Positions 16,103 to 23,238 of a stretch of DNA of 64,000 bases are shown piece after piece. A program made the translations under genes and the position numbers. The number at the start of each line of letters is the position of its first letter. Positions within the stretch are counted from its first letter, which is position 1. The stretch comes from a virus, in the IMG/VR virus record IMGVR_UViG_3300048556_000868, positions 1 to 64,000 of that record; one strand, given 5' to 3'. The notes beneath the pieces are model-generated. The model did not search any database, was not told the DNA's origin, and saw only the letters and a program-made list of their open reading frames with translations.

Positions 16103-16482
16103 TAAATAAATTTATAGGAATAGGTAATCTTACAAAAGATCCAGAAAGCAAAAAATTAGGAGAATATTTTAAATGTGGATTCTCAATAGCTATAAACTCA
16201 ACCAAGGATGAAGTCATTTTTCTTGACGTAGAATCGTGGGGAAAAACAGCTGAAAATTGCCAGAAGTTTATAAAAAAAGGTTCACAAGTATATATTGAAG
16301 GAAAAATAAAAATAAGTAAATGGGAAGATAAAAGTGGCAACAAAAGACAAAAATATTATATAAACGCAGACCTTGTTAGGTTCCTCCAAAAAGATAAAAA
16401 ACAACCCGACTCCTCCCCAAAAGAGCCAGAACCAGCGCAAAGCGTAAAAGAAATCGTAAACGAAGAAGAAATGCCATTTTAA
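16099..16482 (+). CDS. ssb: Single-stranded DNA-binding protein
   Basis: The 127-residue protein has a bacterial SSB OB-fold: INKFIGIGNLTKDPE at the start, VIFLDVESWGKTAENC, and KGSQVYIEGKIKISKWEDKSG. A short flexible linker rich in P, S and E leads to an acidic C-terminal tip EEEMPF, equivalent to the D-D-D-I-P-F tip that recruits repair and replication partners. It coats ssDNA during phage replication and recombination. It overlaps the sigma gene by 4 nt (ATGA) and the next gene by one base (TAATG), so translation is coupled. Confidence 0.93.
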   Translation: MINKFIGIGNLTKDPESKKLGEYFKCGFSIAINSTKDEVIFLDVESWGKTAENCQKFIKKGSQVYIEGKIKISKWEDKSGNKRQKYYINADLVRFLQKDKKQPDSSPKEPEPAQSVKEIVNEEEMPF

Positions 16483-17567
16483 TGAATAAAATCAACTACA
16501 ATGGTCCAATAAATCCCTTGAGCTTTGGGAATGTATCTTATAATTTTTTAAAATATCTTTACAGAAAAGAGATTGAAGTTTGTTATTTTCCAATAGGCAA
16601 TAACTTAGATTTTTCAGCCTTCGATAAAGCTGAAGATGATTTTAAGAAATGGGTATACAGTAGCTACGAAAATCGTTACAAGAACTTATCTCCCGACTCT
16701 CCTTCTTTAAGAATGTGGCACATTAATGGTTCTGACATAAGATATGGAAAGCGACAATTCTTGTATACTTTTTATGAATGCGATAAACCAACATTGATTG
16801 AAAAAAACCTTTGCAATTATCAAGATAGAACAATCTTCAGCAGCTCTCATTCTAAGAAAATATTTACAGACAACGGCTGTAGCAATTCAGAATATATACC
16901 AATAGGATTTGATGAAGATTTTCACGAAACAGGTAAGGTATATTTAGAAGATAAAGTTAACTTTGGCTTAGTTGGAAAATTTGAAAAAAGAAAGCATACT
17001 GCGAGGATATTAAAACTGTGGGCTGATAAGTATGGAAATAATAACAAGTATCAGTTAACCTGTTCCATAACAAATCCTTTCTTTAAAAAAGAACAGCAAA
17101 ACTCTTTGATATTAAAAGCCCTAGAAGGTAAAATGTACAAAAACATCAACCTATTACCTTTTGTTAAAACCAACACCGAAATGAATGAGGTTTATAACGC
17201 TATAGATATAAACCTAAGCGGTCTTAGCGGTGCAGAAGGGTGGAATCTTCCAGCCTTTAACTCTACCTGCTTAGGTAAGTGGAGTGTTGTTTTAAACTCA
17301 ACCTCCCACAAAGATTGGGCTAACGATGAAAATTCAATACTTATTGAACCTAGCGCTCAAGAAGATATATATGATAAAATATTTTTCACCGAGGGTCAGG
17401 ATTACAACCAAGGAACAATGTCAACTTTTACAGATGAGCAATTCTACGAAGCTTGTGAATTAGCTGAAAAAAAGAATAATCAAAAAAATAAAAAAGGCGT
17501 AGAATTAATAAAGCAATTTAATTACAATAAAACCATTGATAAAATATTAGAATTAATGCAATCATGA
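16482..17567 (+). CDS. GT4-like glycosyltransferase
   Basis: The 361-residue protein fits a GT-B transferase. The N-terminal half has a WHINGSDIRYG segment and a YTFYECDKPT segment followed by SSSHSKKIFTDNG, as in glycosyltransferases that locate an acceptor. VNFGLVGKFEKRKHTARIL starts the C-terminal domain, and GLSGAEGWNLPAFNSTCLGKW is the donor-binding region with a Glu seven residues before Asn. It is an unexpected neighbour for ssb and sits inside the early-type operon. It may modify DNA, a virion protein or a surface glycan. Confidence 0.72.
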   Translation: MNKINYNGPINPLSFGNVSYNFLKYLYRKEIEVCYFPIGNNLDFSAFDKAEDDFKKWVYSSYENRYKNLSPDSPSLRMWHINGSDIRYGKRQFLYTFYECDKPTLIEKNLCNYQDRTIFSSSHSKKIFTDNGCSNSEYIPIGFDEDFHETGKVYLEDKVNFGLVGKFEKRKHTARILKLWADKYGNNNKYQLTCSITNPFFKKEQQNSLILKALEGKMYKNINLLPFVKTNTEMNEVYNAIDINLSGLSGAEGWNLPAFNSTCLGKWSVVLNSTSHKDWANDENSILIEPSAQEDIYDKIFFTEGQDYNQGTMSTFTDEQFYEACELAEKKNNQKNKKGVELIKQFNYNKTIDKILELMQS

Positions 17568-18463: not shown

Positions 18464-19000
18464 ATGAGTATACAAATTTATAAACCAAATAAAGATAACA
18501 CAGGCTTTGGGTTTTCTTTTAGCTTAGGCAAAGACAAGAAAAGTAATGAGCCTGTTATGTTTGTTAATGCAATAGCACAGTATTCTTGGAATAACGGAGT
18601 CGGTTCTTTTCAAAAAAATTCTGAAAATCCAGATAAAAATATATCTGTAAAATTCAATGAATTTGAATGTGGCGCAATTATATCATGTATAAAAGAAAGA
18701 TATGAATGGAACACTTTTCACCAAAGCAAAGAAAATAAAACTACAATCAAATTAACCCCATGGGATAAGCCTGTCACTATCCAAAAGTTTAATCCACAAA
18801 CAAAAGGTTACGAATCTACCAAACAAAAAGTTCCAGCTTTTGGTATGACAATGACTAAGAACGGAAATCAAACTTTTAAAATTTCCCTAGATCCAGGTGA
18901 ATGCGAATGTATTATCAGGTTTTTAGAATTACTACTCGCTAAATTATATTCTCACAGAATAAATAAAAATAGTAAATACACTGAACCTTTTGATGGGTAA
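18464..19000 (+). CDS. Hypothetical protein, possible PC4-like DNA-binding fold
   Basis: The 178-residue protein starts MSIQIYKPNKDNTGFGFSF. ECGAIISCIKERYEWNTFH followed by KTTIKLTPW and a strand-rich part ending in SLDPGECECIIRFLELLLAKLY suggest beta strands capped by a C-terminal helix, as in PC4/whirly ssDNA-binding proteins. This is a loose resemblance only. The 1-nt gap to the previous gene and the 8-nt overlap with the next put it in the operon started at 18076. Confidence 0.5.
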   Translation: MSIQIYKPNKDNTGFGFSFSLGKDKKSNEPVMFVNAIAQYSWNNGVGSFQKNSENPDKNISVKFNEFECGAIISCIKERYEWNTFHQSKENKTTIKLTPWDKPVTIQKFNPQTKGYESTKQKVPAFGMTMTKNGNQTFKISLDPGECECIIRFLELLLAKLYSHRINKNSKYTEPFDG

Positions 19001-20912
19001 AAAGAAAAAAATATTATTTCACAGCAATCATAGTAAGGCTTTTACTGGTTTTGGTAAAAATTGTAAAAACGTATTAACTTATTTATATAAAACAGGTAAA
19101 TACGAAATAATAGAAGCTGCAAATGGGTTTACCAAAAGCAACCCTGCTTTAAAAAAAATGCCATGGAAGTGCGTCGGAACTTTACCAGACAGTCAGGCAA
19201 GACTCGCTCAACTAAATAAAGACCCAAACTTAGCTAGGGCTGCGTCTTATGGTGGAGAAACAATCGATTCTTTAATTAAAGAATTTCAGCCTGACGTCTA
19301 TGTGGGTGCAGAAGATATTTGGGGCTTTAATAAGTATTGGGATAAAAAGTGGTGGAATAAAACAAACTGCATGGTTTGGACCACTTTAGACTCAGAGCCC
19401 ATACTGCCTTTAGCTATTGAAGCAGCCGACTATGTAAAAAATTATTTCTGCTGGGCAAGTTTTGCTGAAAGAGAAATGCATAAATTGGGCCACAAGCATA
19501 TCAAAACACTAAGGGGTATTGTTGATGATAAACACTTTTTCAAATTAAAAGAAGAAGAAAAAGATTCTTTAAGAAAAAAGTATAGAATTGACTCTAATAG
19601 TTTTATAATAGGGTTTGTTTTTAGAAATCAACTAAGGAAAAGCGTCCCCAATTTGCTTGACGGCTTTAAGGAATTTTGCGAAAATAATCCTGAATCTAAT
19701 GCTAAGTTATTACTTCATACTAGTTGGGCTGAGGGTTGGGATATACCTAGACTAATAAAAGAGAAAAAAATAGACAACCTAAGAGTACTAACTACTTATT
19801 TTTGTAAAGAATGCAAGAGTTATGATGTTAGGCCTTTCTCTGGGCAAGAACAAGATTGTAGATTTTGTAAAGCTGAAAAATCTCAAAATACAATTACTGC
19901 CGCACATGGAGTTTCTGAAAAACAATTGAATGAAATTTATAATTTAATGGATGTATATTGCCACCCATTTACATCTGGCGGCCAGGAAATACCAATACAA
20001 GAAGCTAAATTAACAGAATTAATTACATTGGTTACAGATTATAGTTGCGGAGAAGATCATTGCACAGAAGAAAGCGGAGGGCTTCCTTTGTCTTGGTCTG
20101 AATACAGAGAGCCAGGAACTCAATTTATAAAAGCTAGTACTTCGCCATCAAGTATAGCAAAACAACTTGAAGAAGTTTATAAAATGGATCTTTCTAAAAA
20201 GATAAAAAAAGGAAAAACTTCTAGGCAATTTGTTATAGAAAACTACTCAACAAAAGTTATAGGCGGCCAGCTTGAATCTATATTCGACAACATGCCCAAT
20301 ATTGATTGGGATTTTGATTTTGAAGAAAAACCAAGAAACCCAGATTATGAGCCTAACGAAAATCTAAGTGACTCAGACTGGTTGGCAGATATATATTTAA
20401 ATATTTTAAATATGAAGGTTGATCCTTCTTCTGATAAAGGGCACAAACATTGGATGAAGAAAATAAAAGAAAAATTTCCTAGAGAAAAAATATTAAACTA
20501 TTTTAAAGAAGTTGCCTCTAAAGAAAACGAACAAATTTTCAACAAGAAAACTATAGAAGATTATTTAGATGGAGATTCTCCTGACAATAGAGTTGCCATA
20601 GTTATGCCTGGTAGCGCTGGTGATGTATTAATGGTAAATTCTTTAATTGATAATTTGAAATCTTTATACCCCGATAAAGATATATACTTTATTACTAAGC
20701 CCATATTTTACCCTTTAATAGAAGACAATGTAAACATTCATAAATTAATACCTTACGACGAAAGTTGCGATAGCTTACTGATGCTAGAAGGCTCAAGTTC
20801 GCATAAAGGGTATTTTAGTATAGCATACCTACCCCATATAGGGACTCAAAAAATCTTAAATTACGTGCATAACGGAGAAGATAAAATGCAAATTGAATTA
20901 TATGAAAATTGA
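18993..20912 (+). CDS. GT4-like glycosyltransferase with zinc-ribbon insert, fused to N-terminal half of a GT9 domain
   Basis: I start at the ATG at 18993 rather than the preceding TTG, giving 639 residues. Residues 1 to about 430 form a GT-B transferase: FHSNHSKAFTGFGKN start, FVFRNQLRKSVPNLL in the C-terminal domain, and HPFTSGGQEIPIQEAKL as the donor-site E-x7-E analogue. A CKEC...CRFC pair, 20 residues apart, is inserted in the donor domain and looks like a zinc ribbon. From about residue 530 a new domain begins, VMPGSAGDVLMVNSLIDNL, the start of a GT9 (ADP-heptose/LPS heptosyltransferase) fold. It stops at the middle of that fold (YVHNGEDKMQIEL). The other half is at 21288-22478. Confidence 0.75.
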   Translation: MGKKKKILFHSNHSKAFTGFGKNCKNVLTYLYKTGKYEIIEAANGFTKSNPALKKMPWKCVGTLPDSQARLAQLNKDPNLARAASYGGETIDSLIKEFQPDVYVGAEDIWGFNKYWDKKWWNKTNCMVWTTLDSEPILPLAIEAADYVKNYFCWASFAEREMHKLGHKHIKTLRGIVDDKHFFKLKEEEKDSLRKKYRIDSNSFIIGFVFRNQLRKSVPNLLDGFKEFCENNPESNAKLLLHTSWAEGWDIPRLIKEKKIDNLRVLTTYFCKECKSYDVRPFSGQEQDCRFCKAEKSQNTITAAHGVSEKQLNEIYNLMDVYCHPFTSGGQEIPIQEAKLTELITLVTDYSCGEDHCTEESGGLPLSWSEYREPGTQFIKASTSPSSIAKQLEEVYKMDLSKKIKKGKTSRQFVIENYSTKVIGGQLESIFDNMPNIDWDFDFEEKPRNPDYEPNENLSDSDWLADIYLNILNMKVDPSSDKGHKHWMKKIKEKFPREKILNYFKEVASKENEQIFNKKTIEDYLDGDSPDNRVAIVMPGSAGDVLMVNSLIDNLKSLYPDKDIYFITKPIFYPLIEDNVNIHKLIPYDESCDSLLMLEGSSSHKGYFSIAYLPHIGTQKILNYVHNGEDKMQIELYEN

Positions 20913-21291
20913 AACACCAATATCAGTAGGCGAACTTTTAGATAAAATATCTATACTTAAGATTAAATCTTTTAAAATAAAAGATGAAGAAAAGCTTAAA
21001 AATGTAAAACTTGAATTAGAATATTTAAACAATATTGCAAAAGAAAAATTAAGTAAATACGAAAATCTTGAGAAAAGAAGTGAAGAGCTTTATCAAGTGA
21101 ACGCCTCCCTCTGGAACATAGAAGATCAAATAAGGGTTGCGGAAAAAAGAAAAGATTTCGATAGCGAATTTATTTTTTTAGCCAGATCTGTGTACATAAC
21201 AAATGATAAAAGGTTTGACATAAAAAATAAAATTAACGAAGAGTGCGGCTCTGAATTAAAAGAAGAAAAATCTTACGAAAAATATTCATGA
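20902..21291 (+). CDS. DUF6165-like protein
   Basis: The ATG at 20902 (129 aa) is preferred over a TTG at 20893. ISVGELLDKISILKIK followed by NVKLELEYLNNIA matches the DUF6165 pattern, a small helical family found near glycosyltransferase genes. The gene sits exactly between the two halves of a GT9 enzyme, overlapping the upstream gene by 11 nt and the downstream gene by 4 nt (ATGA). A role as adaptor or partner of the split enzyme is attractive but unproven. Confidence 0.7.
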   Translation: MKIETPISVGELLDKISILKIKSFKIKDEEKLKNVKLELEYLNNIAKEKLSKYENLEKRSEELYQVNASLWNIEDQIRVAEKRKDFDSEFIFLARSVYITNDKRFDIKNKINEECGSELKEEKSYEKYS

Positions 21292-22478
21292 GTCACCTTG
21301 TTGAAGAGTATGCAAAATCTTTGGGGGTAAAAATTGGCGAACCTACTTTAGATCCTCATTTTTTTCCAATATTAAAAGAAAAATATATAACCTTTCACAC
21401 CAATAACGAGAAGGTTAAAGCAAAACATTATGATCATTGGCCCACTGTTTATGGATTAATAACAGATTATTTAAAAAAGAACAATATATCGATCATACAA
21501 GTTGGTGGTCCTGATGATCCTCAAACTTCTTTTTGTGACCAAGATACCAGGGGCGCTTCTTTTAAGCAAATGTCTTATATTATTAAGCGCGCAATACTTC
21601 ATTTAGGTATAGATAGTTTGCCCATGCACATAGCCAGTGCTTATGATAAAAAAATTGTGTCCCTATTCTCTAACCTTTATATTCAAAATGCTTCTCCTAT
21701 ATGGAATAAAAATAGTGAAGTAAAACTTTTTGCTCCAGATTTTACAGAGCAAAAACCATCTTTTAGATTTGATGAAAACATAAAAAGAGTAAATGAAATA
21801 AACCCAGAAGAAGTAGCTAAAGCTGTTCTGGATTTACTTGATATAAAGAATGATTTATCGGATATAGAAACCCTAAACATAGGCTATCATTATCAAAATA
21901 TAATAACTGAAATAATTCCAGACTTTATTCCAAATGATAATGATTTTCAAGGAAAACTTATCAACCTAAGATGTGACTACGATGTTATGGAAGAGTCTCT
22001 TATTAAGTGGTTAACAAGAAAAACTAACTTAATGATTAATAAGCCTATCGACATAAATACAATAAATTTTTTCAAAGATAATATAGCGGGCTTAACAATA
22101 TTTTTAGGAGAACATGAGTTTCATGAAGAATACTTTGAAAACTTAAATAAACTAAGTATAAATTTTAATTTAATTTCTAGGCATAAAGACAAACTTCCCG
22201 ACTTACGCTTGAAGTTTTTTGATTATACGGTTGAAGAATACGTCGATTATCTCAAAAAAGATCTTGACTTTACTTCAGAATTATGTGATGATACATACTA
22301 TCACAGTAATAAAACCTTAATTTCAAAAAACAAAAAATACAGCAGTAAAGCAGCATGGAAGCAAGGAATAGAAAAAACCCAAGAACATCAAAAAGTCATT
22401 GACAATAAAGATTTTTGGGAAGAATTCCAACATTTAAATATATATAATTATGCCAAGAACAAAAAGCTCAGATACTAA
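21288..22478 (+). CDS. C-terminal half of a GT9-like heptosyltransferase with extra domain
   Basis: The 396-residue protein begins MSHLVEEYAKSLGV, which corresponds to the middle of a GT9 enzyme. About residues 100-130 read LHLGIDSLPMHIASAYDKKI, the GT9 donor-site pattern of G-x-D-S-x-x-x-H-x-A. It therefore continues the fold that begins at the end of the 18993-20912 product. Residues from about 190 on are an additional alpha/beta region ending in a basic tail that I do not recognise. Donor binding would be here, acceptor binding in the partner protein. It overlaps the DUF6165 gene by 4 nt. Confidence 0.7.
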   Translation: MSHLVEEYAKSLGVKIGEPTLDPHFFPILKEKYITFHTNNEKVKAKHYDHWPTVYGLITDYLKKNNISIIQVGGPDDPQTSFCDQDTRGASFKQMSYIIKRAILHLGIDSLPMHIASAYDKKIVSLFSNLYIQNASPIWNKNSEVKLFAPDFTEQKPSFRFDENIKRVNEINPEEVAKAVLDLLDIKNDLSDIETLNIGYHYQNIITEIIPDFIPNDNDFQGKLINLRCDYDVMEESLIKWLTRKTNLMINKPIDINTINFFKDNIAGLTIFLGEHEFHEEYFENLNKLSINFNLISRHKDKLPDLRLKFFDYTVEEYVDYLKKDLDFTSELCDDTYYHSNKTLISKNKKYSSKAAWKQGIEKTQEHQKVIDNKDFWEEFQHLNIYNYAKNKKLRY

Positions 22479-23238
22479 GCGCAAATCAGGACCATCTATA
22501 TTTTCAAGAGACAGTGATGGTTTATTAATTAATACTGACTACGAATTTAATGAAGATGGTTCTATAAATTGGAGAGCTATGGTTAAAGAAGACCATTTAT
22601 TTCCTAATAAATTATGGTTTCAAAATAGAGGAAAAGATACACCAAGATCTACTGAAGGCTTAGCGGATCATCAGCTCCTTATTAAACTTGGAGGAATAAA
22701 AGAGCTTGCTAAGCTAAGAGGATTTTCTAAGTTATCTTATGAAGTAGTAAAATGTGAAGAAGAACATGTTGCGGTTATTTGCACAATGACATTTCTTCCA
22801 AACTATGAAACATTTGGTGAGCCTGTAACTTTTCAAGACATGGCCAATGCAACCCTTAACAATACAAGTAGTTTTGCAACCAAATTTTTAGAGACCATAG
22901 CTTGCAATAGAGCTTTCGTAAGGTGTGTTAGAAACTTTCTTCAAGTTCATATCGTGGGTGATGATGAAATAGATAAATCAGACGGCCCAAGCAAGGTAAC
23001 CCCCAAATATAAAGCTTCTTCTCCAGCAAATCCTTTAAGCCCAACTTCTTCTCTTCAAAACAAAGCTTTAGAAGTTTTAGGCTGTGAATCTTTTTCTGAC
23101 TTTAAATCAAGCCATATTAAAGTTTGGTGGCAAGAAAAAATAGAAGGAATATATTCTAACGATTCTATTAAAAAAGCGGAAGATTGGTCTGATATAGACG
23201 CTAAAGATGCTAGGGTAATGCTTGGCTTAATTAATTAA
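22450..23238 (+). CDS. Hypothetical phage protein, possibly ssDNA-annealing (Rad52/Sak-like)
   Basis: The 262-residue protein contains LADHQLLIKLGGIKELAKLRGF, a TFLPNYETFGEPVTFQDMANAT strand-helix part, and KFLETIACNRAFVRCVRNFL, which resembles the A-x-x-x-A-x-x-R-A-[LF] helix of Rad52/Sak/Erf annealing proteins. A flexible Ser/Pro linker leads to a small C-terminal helical domain. Given ssb in the same operon, a recombination role is plausible but not established. Its start lies 29 nt inside the previous gene. Its stop overlaps the stop of the opposing J-like gene. Confidence 0.45.
   Translation: MPRTKSSDTKRKSGPSIFSRDSDGLLINTDYEFNEDGSINWRAMVKEDHLFPNKLWFQNRGKDTPRSTEGLADHQLLIKLGGIKELAKLRGFSKLSYEVVKCEEEHVAVICTMTFLPNYETFGEPVTFQDMANATLNNTSSFATKFLETIACNRAFVRCVRNFLQVHIVGDDEIDKSDGPSKVTPKYKASSPANPLSPTSSLQNKALEVLGCESFSDFKSSHIKVWWQEKIEGIYSNDSIKKAEDWSDIDAKDARVMLGLIN

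Follow-up and report, generated by a model that had tools for sequence, protein, structure and literature searches.

A GT9-type glycosyltransferase divided between two genes, and most likely bipartite, in uncultured phages

GT9 heptosyltransferases such as WaaC, WaaF, WaaQ, 3TOV and TibC consist of one chain. A division into two proteins is described for MurG-type GT-B enzymes, where Alg13/Alg14 in eukaryotes and EpsE/EpsF in bacteria are separate N- and C-terminal proteins (PMC8993221, PMC4973528). The present analysis concerns positions 18993-22478 of a 64,000-nucleotide stretch of viral DNA (the window), which is part of a 137.7-kb IMG/VR virus record. Three genes on the + strand, each overlapping the next, encode here protein A, which ends with the N-terminal part of a GT9 fold, a DUF6165 protein, and protein B, which begins with the C-terminal part of a GT9 fold. 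The results suggest, at a probability of about 0.72, that a single GT9-type glycosyltransferase is bipartite here, with proteins A and B as its subunits. The split itself is real and widespread in uncultured phages, and it is unreported as far as the literature can be searched; in the open-access papers searched, no report of a two-gene GT9 and no paper naming DUF6165 were found.

Compared with the GT9 heptosyltransferases, the phage proteins are alike in the fold over both halves, in the GD motif and in the D...H of the donor domain. However, they are two chains in every pair collected, so that the single-chain feature fails, and each half has a fusion partner, GT4-DUF4214 in the case of the N-part and an extension of about 200 amino acids in that of the C-part. 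The separation into N- and C-terminal proteins is shared with Alg13/Alg14 and EpsE/EpsF. Those enzymes are of MurG type, whereas the phage pair is GT9 in sequence and fold, and it is therefore placed outside their group. Moreover, one phage subunit is fused to a second glycosyltransferase, and the accessible parts of the sources describe no such fusion for Alg13/Alg14 or EpsE/EpsF (PMC8993221, PMC4973528). The DUF6165 protein matches its family profile (PF19662) and has GT9-type neighbours as in bacteria, but in the window its gene separates the two parts of a GT9.

Layout and conservation of the split

The main features of the locus are as follows.

18993-20912, + strand: protein A, 639 amino acids, with GT4, DUF4214 and the GT9 N-terminal part in this order (Pfam, NCBIfam; phrog_2170, glycosyltransferase, E = 1.3e-15)
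19560-20195, + strand: GT4 (Glycos_transf_1) region, residues 191-402 of protein A (PF00534, 26.9 bits, cut-off 26.4)
20358-20534, + strand: DUF4214-like segment bridging the GT4 and the GT9 N-part (PF13946, E = 7e-4, 20.0 bits, under the cut-off of 23.2)
20553-20909, + strand: N-terminal part of GT9, on the acceptor side, containing the GD motif (positions 2-56 of the NCBIfam heptosyltransferase II model; modelled fold of the relative L071)
20902-20912, + strand: overlap of 11 nucleotides between the genes of protein A and DUF6165 (sequence)
20902-21291, + strand: DUF6165 gene, 129 amino acids, predicted four-helix bundle (PF19662, 35.8 bits, cut-off 27)
21288-21291, + strand: ATGA overlap of 4 nucleotides between the genes of DUF6165 and protein B (sequence)
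21288-21860, + strand: GT9 C-terminal (donor-side) part of protein B, beginning with the last helix ahead of the donor domain (PF01075; TIGR02201, 208-343)
21861-22478, + strand: C-terminal extension of protein B, about 205 amino acids, without a named family (modelled as ordered alpha/beta; ratio of nonsynonymous to synonymous distance, dN/dS, about 0.05 or lower)

The gene of protein A starts at ATG 18993, or alternatively at TTG 18990, and stops at TGA 20910-20912. The DUF6165 gene runs from ATG 20902 to TGA 21289-21291, and that of protein B from ATG 21288 to 22478. The C-part of protein B reaches 29.7 bits against PF01075, above the cut-off of 22, and curated family searches gave nothing above cut-off for its extension. 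A sequence-only reading of the window had placed a GT9 N-terminal half, fused to a GT4, at the end of the first protein, a GT9 C-terminal half at the start of the last and a complete DUF6165 gene with overlapping ends between them, all of which agrees with these profile matches and overlaps. It had also taken the GT9 to be divided into its domain halves. The split is real, but the cut does not lie exactly between the Rossmann domains, the last helix ahead of the donor domain being on protein B.

In IMG/VR profile scans of widening extent, 66, then 114 and then 167 distinct N-C gene pairs were collected. The two parts are separate open reading frames (ORFs) in 167 of 167 pairs, with no fusion, no N-part lacking an adjoining C-part and no unsplit phage version among them, and the split is retained down to 19-22% identity. 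The gene order of the window is kept in two close relatives, with about 95% and 84% identity in A, and also in a far more divergent relative at 41% (A) and 31% (B). The genes overlap or lie at most 20 nucleotides apart in 135 of the 167 pairs. The commonest spacings are a single base from stop to ATG or a short overlap. In contrast, of 288 cellular genomes, all from one phylum, 93 match the N-part profile, and in 19 of the 20 cellular loci inspected the C-part is in the same ORF, as an unsplit GT9.

Two viral proteins of BFVD with a GT9-like part (A0A6J5SVC1 and A0A7S9XE01, 924 and 985 amino acids) could be single-chain GT-GT9 fusions. Among cultured phages, no record matched the N- and C-parts of the window or two divergent C-parts, and the protein A of a relative used as the query gave only a GT4-type match, in phage S-EIVl. 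One relative has an in-frame stop within the DUF4214 segment of its GT4-GT9N gene (L076:1500-2316), which may be an error or a real break.

The five parts of the locus are under purifying selection, with dN of 0.01-0.15 against dS of 0.24-3.3 where dS was computable. The distances of the N-part and those of the C-part correlate with r of 0.78, compared with at most 0.27 in permutations, which shows co-inheritance and not contact.

Fold and active site of the joined parts

As for the profile matches, protein A covers positions 2-56 of the NCBIfam heptosyltransferase II model and protein B positions 208-343 of the heptosyltransferase III model. The latter model scores 55.3 bits with the halves joined, compared with 41.1 bits for the C-part and 11.2 bits for the N-part; the halves thus align to one GT9 model, as the sequence-only reading implied. 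The Pfam and NCBIfam matches of the halves are of GT9 or heptosyltransferase type, and a MurG-type match was not among them.

The modelled chain was taken from the relative L071, in which both halves are in one frame with a stop and three codons between them, the stop being read as Q. Its alignment consisted of separate N- and C-parts of relatives, anchored by read-through rows. The AlphaFold2 model has a predicted local distance difference test score (pLDDT) of 89.7 and a predicted template modelling score of 0.87. When residues 7-307 were compared using VIA-align, the Z scores were 22.4 for 3TOV, 21.2 for WaaF 1PSW, 20.4 for WaaC and 19.2 for TibC. PnsB1 of the NDH complex, which has the same fold, reached 18-19, and the first row outside the GT9-like group 13.1. 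Foldseek agrees with this ranking. The joined halves are thus modelled as the GT-B fold of WaaC and WaaF across both domains, and the cut between them corresponds to a low-confidence loop (pLDDT below 50 at 97-102 and 115-120).

All 59 aligned sequences of the N-part have the Asp of the GD motif. Of 60 C-part sequences, 56 keep the Asp of the donor domain, 54 keep the His and 52 have Lys or Arg. Both motifs, GD and D...H, have aligned counterparts in WaaF 1PSW. In HepI, mutants of D13, D261 and K192 lower the activity about 4700-, 2000- and 900-fold, respectively (PMC5713226). Judging from motif position, the Asp of the N-part would be equivalent to D13 and that of the C-part to D261.

Reassembly into one GT9 is supported because the split is universal among the pairs, the catalytic residues are kept and the joined parts give one GT9 fold. 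Some results weigh against it. The N-part by itself has no Pfam GT9 match and only N-terminal NCBIfam matches, and the donor-domain Asp is missing in 4 and the His in 6 of the 60 sequences. In addition, the model is of a tethered chain from a relative and not of the window's own proteins, and it bears on the fold and not on the interface.

We infer that proteins A and B associate physically and act on a donor and an acceptor as one enzyme. Protein A would bring the acceptor side and the catalytic Asp as the base, and protein B the sugar-nucleotide (donor) domain. The GT4 on protein A would be a second transferase, and the complex could then add two sugars one after the other. The close spacing of the genes may couple the translation of A and B, which would lead to matched amounts of the subunits.

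The gene junction and the rival explanations

DUF6165 lies between the halves in 15 of the 167 pairs. The other 152 are split without DUF6165 at the junction (the rest of these genomes was not searched for it), and other genes stand there in some. The GT9 was therefore not split in two by the DUF6165 gene, as the sequence-only reading had put it; as history, this description is wrong. In L053, a 17-codon ORF resembling the start of DUF6165 (MSLFCEISVGELIDKYN, L053:6358-6416) lies between intact GT9 halves, which indicates that loss of DUF6165 has occurred. In a quick tree without support values, the junction copies form three groups interspersed with copies from elsewhere, and gain and loss are therefore not separable.

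A 213-amino-acid ORF occupies the junction in seven pairs (L285:4350-4991, L327, L394, L395, L398, L401 and L404), and the single copy tested, that of L285, is an Anp1-type glycosyltransferase. An FkbM-type methyltransferase lies at the junction of L318, and small ORFs without an assigned family at those of L078 and L329. HNH-like ORFs with the pattern CxxC...HH...CxxCH lie exactly at the junction in two pairs (L089:5567-5995 and L355:5868-6122) and are possibly homing endonucleases. That of L089 has a helix-turn-helix above the Pfam cut-off and an HNH match of 13.8 bits, below the cut-off of 21.4.

With two gene halves at one junction, and an HNH-like ORF there in 2 of the 167 pairs, the phage pairs may be compared with phage genes split around homing endonucleases, and such an element may first have split the gene and then been lost in most lineages, the boundary being used later by DUF6165 and others. 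This origin is tentative, because the HNH-like ORFs occur in just 2 of 167 pairs, the HNH match of L089 is under the cut-off and the insertion may postdate the split. In contrast to endonuclease-split genes, moreover, most of the phage GT9 junctions have no insert, and the other inserts look like glycan genes. An endonuclease origin is compatible with a bipartite GT9. Inserts such as DUF6165, the methyltransferase and the Anp1-type glycosyltransferase point to a cassette for glycan building, which would acquire modules at a boundary that tolerates insertion.

The halves might also no longer form one enzyme. The C-part would then have become an independent protein that binds sugar nucleotides, and the N-part would serve the GT4 as a structural appendix. 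The C-part has its own conserved extension and the N-part is short, and PnsB1, a chloroplast protein with a GT9-like fold whose role in the NDH complex is structural, is among the nearest structural matches. However, the catalytic Asp of the N-part is invariant, yet would be useless by itself, and every N-part found has a neighbouring C-part, so that separate roles are unlikely.

The sequence-only reading had further proposed that the two parts reassemble with DUF6165 as a third subunit. The inference that the two parts reassemble into one GT9 has good support, but DUF6165 as an essential subunit bridging both halves is improbable. It lies exactly between the halves with overlapping ends, it is under purifying selection, and in bacteria it adjoins GT9-type genes, which lie within 100 bp in 49 of 80 loci, or in 29 of 45 after removal of near-duplicates (the sample consisted of the 80 best-scoring loci and is hence biased). 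However, the bacterial DUF6165 adjoins unsplit GT9, most of the phage pairs do without DUF6165 between the halves, and the L053 pair is intact with only the 17-codon remnant.

The usual position of bacterial DUF6165 genes beside GT9-type genes does support a looser functional link of the two families. The larger cluster of these neighbours contains 27 genes, and a member is a plain GT9 with 154 bits in Pfam; a member of the smaller cluster, of 14 genes, has tetratricopeptide repeats and a GT9 match of 16.9 bits, under the cut-off of 22. DUF6165 is most likely an optional accessory of GT9 enzymes and not the cause of the split. It would either have been inserted where a gene boundary already existed or have been lost from there repeatedly, and the halves would hold together without it. 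The AlphaFold2 model of the window's DUF6165, the predicted four-helix bundle, has a pLDDT of 93.8, and the fold search with it gave no usable match, with a best Foldseek E value of 0.46 and a best VIA Z of 7.0.

Several further observations concern this family. The window's DUF6165 (20902-21291) resembles DUF4254 (PF14063) weakly, with an E value of 8e-5 under the cut-off, and the two families may be related. In viral contigs (L144:2-4372, and also L145, L147, L149 and L151), DUF6165 forms the C-terminal domain of a much longer protein, which has at least 1456 amino acids and in which the region ahead of DUF6165 looks like an FkbM-type methyltransferase. A sequence match of DUF6165 to a lectin stalk was taken as coiled-coil noise, and an ORF upstream of DUF6165 in L009, GT9-looking by eye, was unconfirmed by Pfam and was not used.

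Production of a full-length GT4-GT9 protein by ribosomal frameshifting or read-through, which would make the split only apparent, is very improbable. The genes touch or overlap in most pairs, and four pairs are in frame (L071, L076, L084 and L307). However, the frame relation varies among the 94 close pairs, with 55 at +1, 35 at +2 and these 4 in frame, and a whole DUF6165 gene intervenes in 15 pairs; a programmed frameshift was rejected because the frames differ among relatives. A sequencing or assembly artefact, against which the sequence-only reading had proposed a search for unsplit relatives, or a decaying pseudogene has a negligible probability, since the same architecture occurs in 167 distinct pairs from many metagenomes with low dN/dS. 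The unsplit form was found in the cellular loci and in none of the phage pairs.

Neighbourhood and biological meaning

Further features in and around the locus are as follows.

18464-19000, + strand: conserved upstream gene, 178 amino acids, without a named family (106 of 114 pairs have a member of this family immediately upstream)
19794-19901, + strand: zinc-ribbon-like CxxC...CxxC insert within the GT4 of protein A (weak zinc-binding domain matches, residues 269-304)
22450-23238, + strand: conserved downstream gene, 262 amino acids, without a named family, overlapping the gene of protein B (108 of 114 pairs have a member of this family immediately downstream)

The CxxC...CxxC pattern is found in the GT4 part of 101 of 108 relatives; L007 is without the insert. 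Neither Pfam nor PHROGs gave a name to the two flanking families, which may help to recognise phages of this group. Protein A shares its PHROG (2170) with another GT4-type glycosyltransferase, which lies on the same strand at 16482-17567, about 1.4 kb upstream. Anti-phage defence families gave no match. Elsewhere in this virus record, a region of some 4 kb (L352, at about 93.7-98.0 kb of the record) has no convincing long ORFs and no tRNA genes.

In 54 of 114 cases, a distance of about 0.6 kb separates the pair from an upstream gene for DNA polymerase III alpha. Because of this proximity and the conserved neighbours, phage DNA or a replication-associated protein was considered as the target, which the GT4 and the bipartite GT9, as part of a replication module, would glycosylate by an undescribed route. 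A thymidylate-synthase-type hydroxymethylase was absent from 17 of 18 records, which may be fragments, and this counts against such a target. Tet/JBP gave 0 matches in the 18 records, although the Tet/JBP control was also silent and the records may be fragments. Since most of the records yielded none of the enzymes that usually hydroxylate bases, the probability of this reading stays low.

If proteins A and B do form one enzyme, this would be a two-subunit GT9, in a family otherwise met here only as single chains, and the separation of acceptor and donor domains would have arisen again outside the MurG/Alg13-14 group. A free donor subunit, together with a junction that accepts other glycan genes, suggests modular change of the sugar modification of the phage. 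DUF6165 gains a testable functional context as an accessory of GT9 enzymes.

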